Shown piece by piece: positions 20,545-62,205 of a DNA stretch of 64,000 bases. The position numbers were made by a program, and so were the translations under genes. The notes below the pieces were generated by a model. The model had not been told where the DNA came from and ran no database searches. It saw only the letters and a program-made list of their open reading frames with translations. Positions within the stretch are counted from its first letter, which is position 1. Every line of letters starts with the position of its first letter. Source of the DNA: Acidobacteriota bacterium (GTDB lineage: Bacteria; Acidobacteriota; Blastocatellia; Chloracidobacteriales; JADJPF01); NCBI GenBank assembly GCA_016213785.1, contig JACQZQ010000077.1:1-64000 (forward strand), read 5' to 3'.

Positions 20545-20900
20545 ATTTTTCTCTCCTTTAAGAAAGGGGCTATTACCCAACTATTTCTAGACTTATTTTG
20601 ATTAATTAATTATTAACCATTGTGTTTAACTTAACATATCAATATATAAGTTTTTCACGTAATTTATTTACTTATGTATTTTCAATAGCTTACAAGATTT
20701 ATTTTTCAGATCAATTTTAGATTAGTTAACAAAATACTTAATTTTTACTTTCTTATAGTAATTATCTTCTGGAAATACACCTAGTTAGTCTTGCTATATT
20801 ACTAGGAATTATTCTTAGCTAAATATGGAAAATAAAAGTTCTGGAAAGTTAAAGAAAAAAATTGTCTTGCAAATCAATTTAAAACCCAATTTAGTTTTTT

Positions 20901-20956
20901 CTCTTTTTCTCTTTTTCTCTTTTTCTCTTTTTCTCTTTTTCTCTTTTTCTCTTTTT
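20901..20956. repeat. Tandem repeat, 7 x CTCTTTTT (8 bp), pure pyrimidine strand
   Basis: Seven exact contiguous copies in the intergenic region upstream of the met operon. Confidence 0.95.
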
Positions 20957-21101
20957 ACATCTTTTCGGTACAGGAAAAAAAATTGCAGATAAGTTTGACA
21001 AACCTCTATAAAATTCAATACACTATCCTGCAAATTAGAAATACAACACACTTACATAAAATAGCCTAGCGAAATTTATGAGCTATTGTGTAACCCTAGT
21101 A

Positions 21102-21143
21102 ATTTTCTAATAGAAAATATATTATGTACTGAAGTACATAATA
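21102..21143. promoter_or_regulatory. Two adjacent dyad-symmetric sites (ATTTTCTA-A-TAGAAAAT and TATTATGTACT-GA-AGTACATAATA)
   Basis: Arms of 8 and 11 bp, both perfect; centres about 21.5 bp apart; immediately 5' of the riboswitch-like leader. Confidence 0.45.
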
Positions 21144-21161
21144 ACGATCTTAATAATTTAT

Positions 21162-21212
21162 ACGTGGCGATTTAAGGCGACTTGCTCCACATAAAAAACA
21201 GCTAAAGAACCA
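21162..21212 (+). promoter_or_regulatory. SAM-II riboswitch candidate
   Basis: ACGUGGCGAUUUAAGGCGACUUGCUCCACAUAAAAAACAGCUAAAGAACC: P1 GUGG/CCAC, GAUUU, CUUGC and GCUAAA elements in SAM-II order and spacing; upstream of Cys/Met-PLP genes. Confidence 0.8.
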
Positions 21213-21245
21213 TTTGATCTCATCAAATTCCTTTCAATAAAGGAG

Positions 21246-21294
21246 ATCTCATGCATTCTTAGCGTGAGATACTTCTTGCGCTAAAAAAGCTGCC
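21246..21294 (+). promoter_or_regulatory. Second H-type pseudoknot in the leader (SAM-V-like or unclassified)
   Basis: Stem AUCUCA/UGAGAU; loop segment UUAGCG (21259-21264) perfectly complementary to downstream CGCUAA (21279-21284). Confidence 0.45.
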
Positions 21295-21309: not shown

Positions 21310-21340
21310 GCCATGCAGACTTAAAGGAGACTGCAATGGC
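21310..21340 (+). promoter_or_regulatory. RBS hairpin holding the SD in its loop and the start codon in its stem
   Basis: GCCAUGCAG-acuuAAAGGAGa-CUGCAAUGGC: 9-bp stem with one bulged A; AUG at 21336. Confidence 0.55.
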
Positions 21341-22511
21341 AAATAATTACAAACTTACCAATGAATACTATTCTCTAGATACAGTGGCTCTTCATTCAGG
21401 TACAGAACCAGACCCAACAACAGGTTCTATTCTTACCCCTATTTACCAAACAACTACTTATCGTCAAGAGGCAGTAGGTGTACATAAAGGTTTCACTTAC
21501 AGCCGAGCTAGTAACCCTACAGTTACAGCATTAGAAAAACGTCTAGCCGCTATAGAAGGTGCATCATTTGCTACTTGCTATGCTACAGGATTAGCAGCAA
21601 CTACGGCATTATGTCTAGCAGTACTTAAATCAGGTGATCGTGTGATTGTTTCACAAGCAGTTTATGGTGGAACAGTAAGGTTATTGCGTCAAATATTTTT
21701 TAAGTTTGGCGTAGAAGCAGATTTTGTAGATACATCTAATATAGAAGCGCTTTCTCTAGCTTTAACTCGGCCAACTCGTTTTATCTTTATTGAAACACCA
21801 GCAAATCCTACTCTTAAGCTTACCGACATAGCTTTAGTAGCAGGTCTTGCCCATAAAGTAGGCGCTTTACTAATTGTTGATAACACACTTCTAACGCCTG
21901 TGCTTCAACGGCCTTTTGAGTTTGGAGCCGATATTGTTTTACATTCTACTACTAAATTTATTGAAGGCCATAATGCTACAGTTGGAGGAGCATTAATTAC
22001 TAATGATCCAGAATTACAAGAACTCTTTACTTTAACACGAACTGCAACAGGCGTTATTCAGGCACCTTTCCCTGCTTGGTTAACACTTCAAGGGGTTAAA
22101 ACACTTCCCCTTCGTATGATACGCCATTCAGAAAATGCTCTACAAATTGCTAGATTTCTAGAAAAACATCCAAAAATAAGTAATTTAGCTTATCCTGGCT
22201 TAGAATCCTTTCCTCAATATGAGCTAGCTAAACGTCAACAACGAACTGGTGGAGCACTTATCACATTTGAAGTAGTTGGTGGTGTTAAAGCAGGTATTCA
22301 GCTAATGAACTCTGTACACTTATGTGCTTTAGCTGAAAACTTAGGCTCAGCAGAAACTCTTATTACTCATCCTGTTTCAATGACACATGCTTCAGTTCCA
22401 GTAGAACAGCGAGTTGCAGCAGGTATTACTGATGGTCTAGTAAGATTATCAGTAGGATTAGAGTGCCCAAATGATGTAATTAACGACCTTAAACAAGCCT
22501 TGTGCAAATAA
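21336..22511 (+). CDS. Cys/Met-metabolism PLP enzyme (cystathionine gamma-synthase/lyase-like)
   Basis: YSRASNPTVTALEKRLAAIEG, ATGLAATTAL, LLIVDNTLLTPVLQRPFEFGADIVLHSTTKFIEGHNATVGG (PLP lysine motif). Confidence 0.93.
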   Translation: MANNYKLTNEYYSLDTVALHSGTEPDPTTGSILTPIYQTTTYRQEAVGVHKGFTYSRASNPTVTALEKRLAAIEGASFATCYATGLAATTALCLAVLKSGDRVIVSQAVYGGTVRLLRQIFFKFGVEADFVDTSNIEALSLALTRPTRFIFIETPANPTLKLTDIALVAGLAHKVGALLIVDNTLLTPVLQRPFEFGADIVLHSTTKFIEGHNATVGGALITNDPELQELFTLTRTATGVIQAPFPAWLTLQGVKTLPLRMIRHSENALQIARFLEKHPKISNLAYPGLESFPQYELAKRQQRTGGALITFEVVGGVKAGIQLMNSVHLCALAENLGSAETLITHPVSMTHASVPVEQRVAAGITDGLVRLSVGLECPNDVINDLKQALCK

Positions 22512-22532: not shown

Positions 22533-24494
22533 TTGTTTACAACATCTAGGTTACTTATCTTAAAATTTGGTAGTTCAGTACTGCGTTCAGAAACAGATCT
22601 TCCCCAAGTAGTGCAAGAGATATATCATGTTTGGCGTGGTGGAAATAAGGTTTTAGTAGTAGTTTCAGCATTTGGTAATACAACAGACACGCTTTTACAA
22701 CGAGCTTATAATCTTTGTAAAGAACCTGAACCTATCGCACTAGCAAACTTACTAGCAACCGGAGAAACTACCGCATCCATTTTACTTGGGCTTGCATTAA
22801 ATAAGGCTGGTATTGCAACTAAAACTTTAGACGCTACTCAAGCAGGACTAGTTACTACAGAAAATCCTTTAGACTCAGAACTTATCTCTGCAAATACTGA
22901 ATATATTCAAAAAGAGCTAGAAAATTTTGTTGTTGTTATACCTGGTTTTATTGGTAAAGATAGCAGAGGAAATACTACTCTATTAGGCCGAGGTGGCTCT
23001 GATTTTACAGCAATTTTTCTTAGCCAACAATTAAAGGGGCATTGTATCTTAGTTAAAGATGTTGATGGTCTTTATACTAGCGATCCTGCTCTAGTAGAGT
23101 CTCAAGCATTACGTTTTTCTAAAGTTAAATGGGAAACAGCCTGCGAAATTGGAGGCAAAGTAGTACAATCTAAAGCTGTTCAATTTGCTGCTAGTCAAGG
23201 GCTTTCATTTACAATAAAATCTATAAACTCTAATGAAGGTACAGAAGTAGGCTTAGGCCCAGATCAATTCTTTCCCCTTAAACCTTTAACCTTATCTAAG
23301 GAAAATAAACACATAAAAATCCCTACTTGTTGTGTGCATATTAACCTAGAAAATACTTCTTATAATGATCTTTACAACCCTTCTGTTCCACCAATTTACC
23401 AAACTGCAACTTTTCGCCAAACTTCAGCTACAAAATTTGGGGCTTATGATTACTCTCGTACAGCAAACCCAACTCGTACACTATTAGAAGAACAACTTGC
23501 TCAACTAGAAGGAGGAAGTTATGCAAGTGCCTTTTCTAGCGGTATGGCAGCCTTAACTGCTCTTACAAGATTAGTTAAACCTGGAGAGGAAATAATTGCA
23601 AGTAACGATCTTTATGGAGGAACTGTAAGACTGCTAAATCAATTACTTACACATTATGCTATTGGTATACATTATGTAGATACTAGTAATATTGCAGAAA
23701 TAGCTAAAGCACTTAATCCAAAAACAAAGTTGATCATTGTAGAAACCCCAACAAATCCTTTTCTAAGAATTTGCGATATTAGAGCAATTGCACAGCTAGC
23801 TAAAAATGCTGGTGTATTACTTGCTGTTGATAATTCTATGCTCTCTCCTTGTTTTCAACAGCCTTTAAGACTAGGTGCAGATATAGTAGTACATTCTGCA
23901 ACTAAATTCCTTGGTGGGCATGGTGATTTAATTGCAGGTGCAGTAATTACAAGTAATGCAGAATTAAACCGCAAAATAGCTTTTCAACAAAATGCCGAAG
24001 GGTCAGGTCTTAGCCCTTTTGAATCCTGGCTTTTGATGAGGGGCATTAAAACACTGGCATTAAGAGCAGAAAAACAAAATATATCTGCTAGAAAAGTAGC
24101 AGAATATCTAAATAATCATCCTTTAGTAAAAAAGGTTTATTATCCAGGATTATCTACTCATTCTGGTTATGATATTCATCGCCAACAAGCAACAGGCGAT
24201 GGTGCAGTAATTAGTTTTACTAGTAACAATAAAGACTTTTCTGAACGAATAGTTCAACAAACTAAACTCTTTAGTACTGCTGTAAGTTTTGGTTCTGTTT
24301 ATTCAACAATAAGTTTGCCTTATAATATGTCTCACTTAAGTATTCCCTTAGAGCTTAAAAACCAGCTTGCCCCTCCATCTGACCTAGTACGAATATCTGT
24401 AGGAATTGAAGATGTTGAAGATCTTATGGAAGATTTGGACGAAGCTATTCGTCTAGCACTAGAGGAAGATGCTACACCTTTGCTTGCTCTTTAA
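22533..24494 (+). CDS. Fusion protein: ACT-less aspartokinase domain + Cys/Met-metabolism PLP enzyme
   Basis: N-terminus LILKFGSSV...VVVSAFGNTTDTLL...LLGRGGSDFTAIFLSQQL...VKDVDGLYTSDPALV; C-terminus YDYSRTANPTRTLLEEQLAQLEGG...VDNSMLSPCFQQPLRLGADIVVHSATKFLGGHGD. TTG start with AGGAGG SD. Confidence 0.92.
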   Translation: MFTTSRLLILKFGSSVLRSETDLPQVVQEIYHVWRGGNKVLVVVSAFGNTTDTLLQRAYNLCKEPEPIALANLLATGETTASILLGLALNKAGIATKTLDATQAGLVTTENPLDSELISANTEYIQKELENFVVVIPGFIGKDSRGNTTLLGRGGSDFTAIFLSQQLKGHCILVKDVDGLYTSDPALVESQALRFSKVKWETACEIGGKVVQSKAVQFAASQGLSFTIKSINSNEGTEVGLGPDQFFPLKPLTLSKENKHIKIPTCCVHINLENTSYNDLYNPSVPPIYQTATFRQTSATKFGAYDYSRTANPTRTLLEEQLAQLEGGSYASAFSSGMAALTALTRLVKPGEEIIASNDLYGGTVRLLNQLLTHYAIGIHYVDTSNIAEIAKALNPKTKLIIVETPTNPFLRICDIRAIAQLAKNAGVLLAVDNSMLSPCFQQPLRLGADIVVHSATKFLGGHGDLIAGAVITSNAELNRKIAFQQNAEGSGLSPFESWLLMRGIKTLALRAEKQNISARKVAEYLNNHPLVKKVYYPGLSTHSGYDIHRQQATGDGAVISFTSNNKDFSERIVQQTKLFSTAVSFGSVYSTISLPYNMSHLSIPLELKNQLAPPSDLVRISVGIEDVEDLMEDLDEAIRLALEEDATPLLAL

Positions 24495-51517: not shown

Positions 51518-51720
51518 TTAAGATTCTCTCCTTAGAGCAATATTACTTGAGAGACTTTTTAGACAAAAACAAAAAAGCCGCCTAAAAAGCTTCTATCCTC
51601 AAAATGATTTGCTTATTTTTAAGGAGATGCATTATTAGAGCAGCGCGTTTGTTTAGAAAAATAAGTAAAGCTTTTCCTTAAACTTTATAATTTCTATAAA
51701 CTTTTAAGGAAAAGCTTAAC

Positions 51721-51794
51721 GTCTCGGACGGGATTCGAACCCGTGTCGCCGCCGTGAAAGGGCGGTATCCTGAGCCGGACTAGATGACCGAGAC
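51721..51794 (-). tRNA. tRNA-Glu (anticodon UUC)
   Basis: GTCTCGG...CCGAGAC acceptor stem, CCGCC-CTTTCAC-GGCGG anticodon arm, GGGTTCGAATCCC T arm. Confidence 0.96.
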
Positions 51795-51816
51795 TTAATT
51801 ATTAATTGTAAGAGGT

Positions 51817-51888
51817 GAGCCGTGGTGGGCTCGAACCACCGACCCTTTGGTTAAAAGCCAAATGCTCTACCGGCTGAGCTAACGGCCC
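51817..51888 (-). tRNA. tRNA-Lys (anticodon UUU)
   Basis: GGGCCGT...ACGGCTC acceptor stem, anticodon loop CTTTTAA, GGTGGTTCGAGCCCACC T arm. Confidence 0.95.
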
Positions 51889-52130: not shown

Positions 52131-52380
52131 GTTGTCACTTACCTAGTCCTAAAGGACTAGGCTTATTAGGGTAAAAGCTAATAAGTCCACGTGACCAAAC
52201 TAAGCTGTATGTGAAGCTACGTTATTAGAAGAGTTAAAGAACACACCTTGGAATGCGTGCCAGTTCCAAGCGCTGTAACCAGTAAGCTAAACAACTGCAA
52301 GGGGTATAGTGGTAATGCTTATTGGATATACTAACTAATAACTTTGTCGAGGCAGACTTACCCCAGTAATGGGAGATTTG
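52131..52380. ncRNA. Highly structured non-coding region; candidate omega-RNA/HEARO-like relic
   Basis: GTCAC...GTGAC enclosing CCTAGTCC-TAAA-GGACTAGG and CTTATTAG-N8-CTAATAAG; TTGGAA-N10-TTCCAA; CAGTT/AACTG; GGGGTA...TACCCC. No ORF in the region. Confidence 0.45.
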
Positions 52381-61984: not shown

Positions 61985-62205
61985 AGATTCTTACACTCTT
62001 AAGCCCCAAGGGGGCGAAAGAATTGTAGCCAAGGGTGTATAGAAAGAGTTCACAGAAAAAGCCGCAAAGCGGCGAAAGAATAAAAAAATAGCTTAGCATG
62101 TTTATTATGTCGCCCCGCTGGGGCTTGAAGCTAACTAACTGAAAACCCAGTGCTTACGCACTGGGCTACAAATATTTCGCCCCCTTGGGGCTTAAGAATT
62201 AAGAG
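61985..62205. repeat. Cluster of palindromic extragenic repeats
   Basis: AGCCCCAAGGGGGCGAAAGAAT, AAGCCGCAAAGCGGCGAAAGAAT, TTATGTCGCCCCGCTGGGGCTTGAAG (62105-62130), CCCAGTGC-TTAC-GCACTGGG (62146-62165), TTTCGCCCCCTTGGGGCTTAAG. Confidence 0.8.

Follow-up and report, generated by a model that had tools for sequence, protein, structure and literature searches.

The SAM-II riboswitch family (SAM_alpha, Rfam RF00521) is built of a P1 helix and an H-type pseudoknot, P2, with a GAUUU/UUGC/GCUAAA core, lies before met genes, and is frequently accompanied by intrinsic terminators (PMC1273637, PMC2258182); all these features are also present in the lineage described here. The pocket positions U10–U12, U20–C23, and G42–A47 are described as conserved in SAM-II, and the base-triple positions G8-C23-G42, U11-U21-A45, and U12-U20-A46 are common to the metX SAM-II structure (2QWY) and the present element (PMC3764141). 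The 2QWY aptamer is a translational switch with the Shine-Dalgarno sequence in P2a (PMC6061858), whereas P2a has no such sequence here and terminators follow most copies. The related SAM-V, whose ligand contacts are described, has the same binding core and pseudoknot but works at the level of translation, with its Shine-Dalgarno sequence placed within P2a or next to it (PMC6061858); no such sequence is present in the element described here. A further relative is the SAM-II long loop family (RF01726) of Bacteroidetes and marine origin (PMC2864571). Tandem SAM-II arrangements are already known from 44 cases (PMC9481103).

According to a 2007 statement, no mechanism of SAM-II control had been established by experiment (PMC2258182); few leaders are covered by subsequent studies (PMC9373788). 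A literature search, mainly of papers outside subscription, gave no mention of SAM-II in Acidobacteria.

The Element in the Window

The window, that is, the whole analysed stretch of 64,000 nucleotides, has a GC content of 33% and belongs to an AT-rich genome. On its + strand a SAM-II-type aptamer is located at 21160–21215, where the lineage model R1 described below gives 70.1 bits, the copy itself being part of the R1 training set. The original prediction of a SAM-II riboswitch was based on a leader of 50 letters, which is present at 21162–21211 of the + strand together with the described pairings. The P1 helix is formed by GUGG (21164–21167) and CCAC (21187–21190), both invariant in 117 aligned copies, and encloses the L1 triplex strand GAUUU (21169–21173; G8, A9, U10, U11, and U12 in the metX SAM-II numbering, PMC3764141), the P2a 5′ strand GG (21176–21177), and the invariant P2b 5′ strand UUGC (21182–21185; U20, U21, G22, and C23). 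Then the A-rich L3 leads to the P2b 3′ strand with the ligand layer, GCUAAA (21201–21206; G42, C43, U44, A45, A46, and A47, assigned by the family alignment), and to the P2a 3′ strand CC (21210–21211), both P2a strands being assigned by family covariation and all parts lying on the + strand.

Thus the predicted order of P1, GAUUU, UUGC, CCAC, A-rich linker, and GCUAAA is present, with the reservation that the outer P1 pair C21163/A21191 is mismatched and P1 has 4 bp. In P2a a GG/CC pseudoknot pairing is possible and is followed by a mismatch of C21178 opposite A21209. The outer pair of P1 and the inner pair of P2a are formed in most relatives but not in the window copy; at every published SAM-II pocket position (U10–U12, U20–C23, and G42–A47) it carries the standard base.

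In a routine RNA-family search at the Rfam gathering cut-offs the window element was not matched. The best single Rfam match of this copy was RF01726, although the loops here are short, with 23.0 bits against a cut-off of 44 (E 0.056 in 601 nt and 0.14 genome-wide), and in the sensitive scan RF00521 gave 17.0 bits against a cut-off of 36, so the significant cmsearch match that had been proposed as a check was not reached by the window copy alone. Family-level evidence was therefore needed. A regular expression for the core, made after the fact, matched once in the window and in 0 of 200 shuffles. Weak RF01726 matches elsewhere in the same genome were mostly noise, since 10 of 14 control genomes gave such matches too, and one of them (L001) proved on inspection not to be the motif. 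For SAM-I and other riboswitch classes the Rfam scans gave no match. SAM-V did not match the window element up to E 10 in the sensitive Rfam scan and was rejected; no Shine-Dalgarno sequence lies within the element, and the operon start codon is about 125 nt further on.

Distribution and Class Assignment

A 216-nt leader query was compared at the DNA level with 100 related genomes; 76 of them gave matches, and the significant ones were almost all confined to the element (query positions about 19–88), a conservation far beyond chance. Altogether 117 distinct copies were aligned, and model R1 was built from them. With this model at least one copy was found in 156 of 165 Blastocatellia genomes (99 of 104 among the good ones); in a phylum sample of 297 genomes copies outside Blastocatellia occurred in only 3 of roughly 264 genomes sampled. 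Exact-pattern matches were also obtained in subdivision-2/Terriglobia MAGs. SAM-II-like copies from other families of the phylum (L165, L166, and L167) have a different but complementary P1 (CGUCG/CGACG, CCUGG/CCAGG). One copy (L224) in a MAG labelled Betaproteobacteria is nearly identical to the acidobacterial L227, and this MAG is probably mis-binned or mislabelled. In G001–G005 the genes for the nearest Cys/Met enzymes are 46–52% identical to that of the window and maybe not true orthologues; the element was seen in none of their five leaders.

When RF00521 was run over the phylum, several copies of the same lineage scored above its cut-off: 52.5 bits in G058, 50.5 and 49.1 bits in G027, and, among tandem partners with a compact one-base joint, 40.2 bits in G022, 37.3 bits in G026, and 36.3 bits in G018. 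The two G027 copies are outside the R1 training set, and R1 finds both at E about 3e-10. The window-type copies, which score about 17–33 bits against the RF00521 cut-off of 36, thus grade into above-cut-off copies, which argues for a divergent SAM-II and not for a separate class. The differences from the RF00521 consensus are a joint before the P1 3′ strand of one base (U) in most copies instead of two and shorter L1 and L3.

According to these data the window element is very probably a member of the SAM-II riboswitches, from a compact acidobacterial lineage that is largely missed by the Rfam cut-offs, with SAM as the putative ligand. The SAM-II reading of the original prediction is thereby supported by the retained pocket positions, the covarying family pseudoknot, the fitting genes, and the same-class paralogues above the Rfam SAM-II cut-off. 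The guess of an acidobacterial host was right (class Blastocatellia, the order of Chloracidobacterium); such a host is less surprising for SAM-II than had been supposed, since RF00521 as it stands already places several copies from acidobacteria over its cut-off.

Covariation and Conservation of the Pocket

The inner P1 pairs GUGG/CCAC are formed in 117 of 117 copies, and the outer pair switches among C-G, A-U, and U-G. Because P2b and the inner P1 pairs are always formed and never vary in these copies, neither gives covariation support. P2a takes the forms GGC/GCC, GGU/ACC, AGC/GCU, CGAC/GUCG, CAAC/GUUG, UGACU/AGUCG, and others, so the claim of a compensatory GG/CC-for-CC/GG change was right in kind, the additional C21178/A21209 mismatch of the window copy set aside. 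The P2a covariation score of the 117 copies was 0.121 versus 0.074 ± 0.005 in shuffles (0 of 500), and P2a of at least 3 bp was formed in 96 of 117 copies versus 82.8 ± 3.2 with tails swapped (0 of 1000); relatedness between genomes is only partly removed by both tests. A conserved DNA element, such as an operator or a mobile repeat, would fit the high conservation of the primary sequence without an RNA switch; this explanation is disfavoured by the covariation in P2a and in the anti-pseudoknot pairing and by the Rfam-level SAM-II scores of close paralogues, and it is extremely unlikely.

Among the pocket bases of the SAM-II-type aptamer G8, U11, U12, U20–C23, and C43–A46 are invariant in 117 copies. 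Position 10 is U in 99 copies and G in 18, position 47 is A in 112, G in 4, and C in 1, and these changes are found in sublineages. Hence the standard pocket positions (PMC3764141) and the SAM-V contacts (PMC6061858) are kept in the family except U10 and A47.

Downstream Genes

An aspartokinase/Cys-Met operon had been proposed downstream of the leader. The genes are indeed methionine genes, but the Cys/Met-metabolism PLP enzyme comes first (21336–22511, + strand; best match to a cystathionine gamma-synthase model, below the curated cut-off), and the aspartokinase makes up the N-terminal portion of the gene after it (22533–24494, + strand), in which profile matches indicate fusion of an aspartokinase domain with a PLP enzyme resembling cystathionine beta-lyase. 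In this fusion the aspartokinase part covers residues 7–222, with no ACT domain matched, and the cystathionine beta-lyase-like part residues 269–639.

About 111 of 116 assigned copies lie upstream of methionine, homocysteine, or sulfur genes, the gene identities being taken from cluster representatives and not from each member and tandem copies being counted separately. The first gene encodes a Cys/Met PLP enzyme in 41 cases, MetH or a methyltransferase-MTHFR protein in 36, a ThrC-like protein in 22, an SDR heading an SDR-ThrC-like-ThiS operon in 6, a nitrite/sulfite reductase-like protein in 3, MetX in 2, and an aspartokinase in 1; the remainder are peroxiredoxin (2), DinB-like (2), and one gene without assignment. 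Compared with the proteobacterial set of metY, metA, metX, hom, and metC (PMC4239095), the targets here add metH, methyltransferase-MTHFR, and ThrC-like/ThiS operons. The genome of the window also holds a second copy (L091; G000:C31:181332–181387), which has a canonical terminator and precedes a DinB/mycothiol-transferase-like gene, as does L086 in G002, and the copies L082 and L168 are upstream of a peroxiredoxin gene.

Downstream of the “threonine synthase” genes led by SAM-II lies a sulfur carrier of the ThiS family (L068:1440–3004, L221:587–3338, L254:2490–6592, L206, L230, and others). The carrier is situated at most 200 nt from the ThrC-like gene in 41 of 61 loci, most others running off the locus, and most carriers end in ...P(A/S)I(A/S)GG or few residues beyond; L221 adds a ThiF-rhodanese protein, and L254 adds MetE-like and rhodanese proteins. 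This gene context suggests that the ThrC-like enzyme may depend on the carrier and make homocysteine or cysteine.

Variants of the Pocket

A pattern search was run on 164 genomes of the class. The G10 form, in which GAUUU has become GAGUU, occurred together with a two-base joint in 110 of them, which all belong to one family and mostly have two copies each (loci L094, L096, L102–L118, L147–L154, L157–L164, L171, L172, and L303–L332); the U10 form with a two-base joint occurred in six genomes. Position 10 belongs to the layer that holds the adenine of SAM. Of 39 two-base-joint loci examined, 36 are before MetH or methyltransferase-MTHFR genes and 3 are without assignment, whichever base is at position 10. 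In L033, L069, and L088 (both copies) A47, the base contacting the amino-acid end of SAM, is changed to G (CUAAGG), with a matching complement retained in the terminator loops.

The G10 copies raise the question of a SAM-II fold with another ligand, SAH or another sulfur metabolite, given that a sublineage has replaced U10, for which complete conservation in SAM-II is reported (PMC3764141), and that SAM-I variants are known to switch ligand (PMC10853860). The pocket of the window copy is nevertheless standard, the genes fit the expectation for feedback by SAM, and the same two genes stand downstream of U10 and G10 copies, which argues for the same signal; another ligand is accordingly judged highly improbable. 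A wider proposal, also held to be unlikely, is a class-wide split of the lineage by target, with compact U10 copies before metB, metY, metX, and ThrC-like genes, two-base-joint copies before metH and methyltransferase-MTHFR genes, and, within the latter copies, replacement of U10 by G in the majority of one family's genomes; the G10 form may bind another ligand or SAM in a different way.

Expression Platform and Proposed Switch

An intrinsic terminator is present 3′ of the copy in 109 of 117 cases, and across the family a sequence complementary to the aptamer GCUAAAN strand lies in the terminator loop and 3′ arm. The complementarity of the loop to its own aptamer was 15.4 versus 13.35 ± 0.24 with copies swapped (0 of 300). 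Of 145 cases, 113 show a Watson-Crick pair between the first variable base after CUAAA and its partner base in the terminator; among 80 non-redundant copies there are 59 such pairs versus 30.4 expected (0 of 20000 shuffles). As for P2a, these comparisons correct in part for the relatedness between genomes. In folds the antiterminator was formed by the free leader in 86 of 113 copies, and the terminator in 104 with the aptamer masked. Thus one and the same strand would be captured in P2 by SAM and, in the absence of SAM, would disrupt the terminator, and the lineage is probably a transcriptional OFF switch, the direction of which is read from sequence.

In the window leader the longest inverted repeat (I1) is the antiterminator, whose 5′ arm (21201–21221, + strand) overlaps the aptamer 3′ strand and whose 3′ arm (21243–21263, + strand) contains AUUCUUAGC, complementary to GCUAAAGAA with one bulge; the pairing is indicated by the fold and by family covariation. 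The competing hairpin in the terminator position, AUCUCAUGC-AUUCUUA-GCGUGAGAU (21246–21270, + strand), is followed by the weak U-tract ACUUCUUG, and both alternative states appear in folds. According to the proposed mechanism, abundant SAM would bind between L1 and P2b and lock the strand GCUAAAGAACC into the pseudoknot, so that the 21246–21270 hairpin could fold and block or impede expression. At low SAM, GCUAAAGAACC would pair with the hairpin loop and 3′ arm (21243–21263), the hairpin would be broken up, and the two-gene methionine operon would be expressed.

No canonical terminator was called in the window leader, where the tail after the hairpin is ACUUCUUG. Due to this poor U-tract and the two mismatches the read-out of the window copy is less certain; transcription attenuation by this copy is likely but not certain and is the least certain part of the reading. 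It is possible, at a rather low probability, that the same aptamer works in the window mainly on translation or via Rho, where a 15-bp hairpin of the SAM-bound state would bury AAAGGAG together with the AUG start of a mini-ORF of three codons (21251–21262) and a separate hairpin at 21310–21340 would hold the operon start codon. Besides the missing canonical terminator, the extended hairpin in the masked-aptamer fold and the stability of the start-codon hairpin (−13.4 kcal/mol) are consistent with such control, but the mini-ORF may be accidental and recognisable terminators are found in the great majority of the aligned copies and in L091 of the same genome.

It is also unlikely that the window copy is a decaying relic with its regulation lost. 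The outer P1 and inner P2a mismatches and the poor U-tract would fit such decay, as would the result for the genus-mate G001 (87% complete), where the R1 search found no copy at E ≤ 1e-4; on the other hand, the pocket bases and both alternative helices are all kept in an AT-rich genome, where unselected leaders should drift.

Several other features were observed in the same region. A promoter-like TTGACA-18-TACACT lies at 20995–21024 of the + strand (10 of 12 matches), such sites being about as many as chance expects. The hairpin at 21310–21340, GCCAUGCAG...CUGCAAUGGC, has the start codon in the stem and AAAGGAG in the loop, and a resembling sequence also stands before related genes, for example, in L025. 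Just upstream of the aptamer (21120–21143) are the perfect 11-nt inverted-repeat arms TATTATGTACT/AGTACATAATA, and upstream of the leader (20896–20956) is a perfect 8-base tandem repeat of TTTTTCTC in 7.6 copies. Further Rfam matches in the window (52134–52361, 62146–62192, and 51720–51888) are HEARO RNA (117.7 bits), Acido-Lenti-1 RNA, and two tRNAs.

Conclusions

In summary, judged by sequence and gene context, the lineage is a real SAM-II, ordinary in kind and poorly annotated. Control of methionine synthesis by putative SAM-II riboswitches appears to be near universal in one acidobacterial class, and its compact copies are below the Rfam cut-offs, so that routine annotation misses them. 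A large set of natural aptamers with a covarying transcriptional expression platform is thereby added to the family. Two leads from this set are a natural mutant of the pocket, G10, and genes under putative SAM-II control that are possibly mis-named in function.
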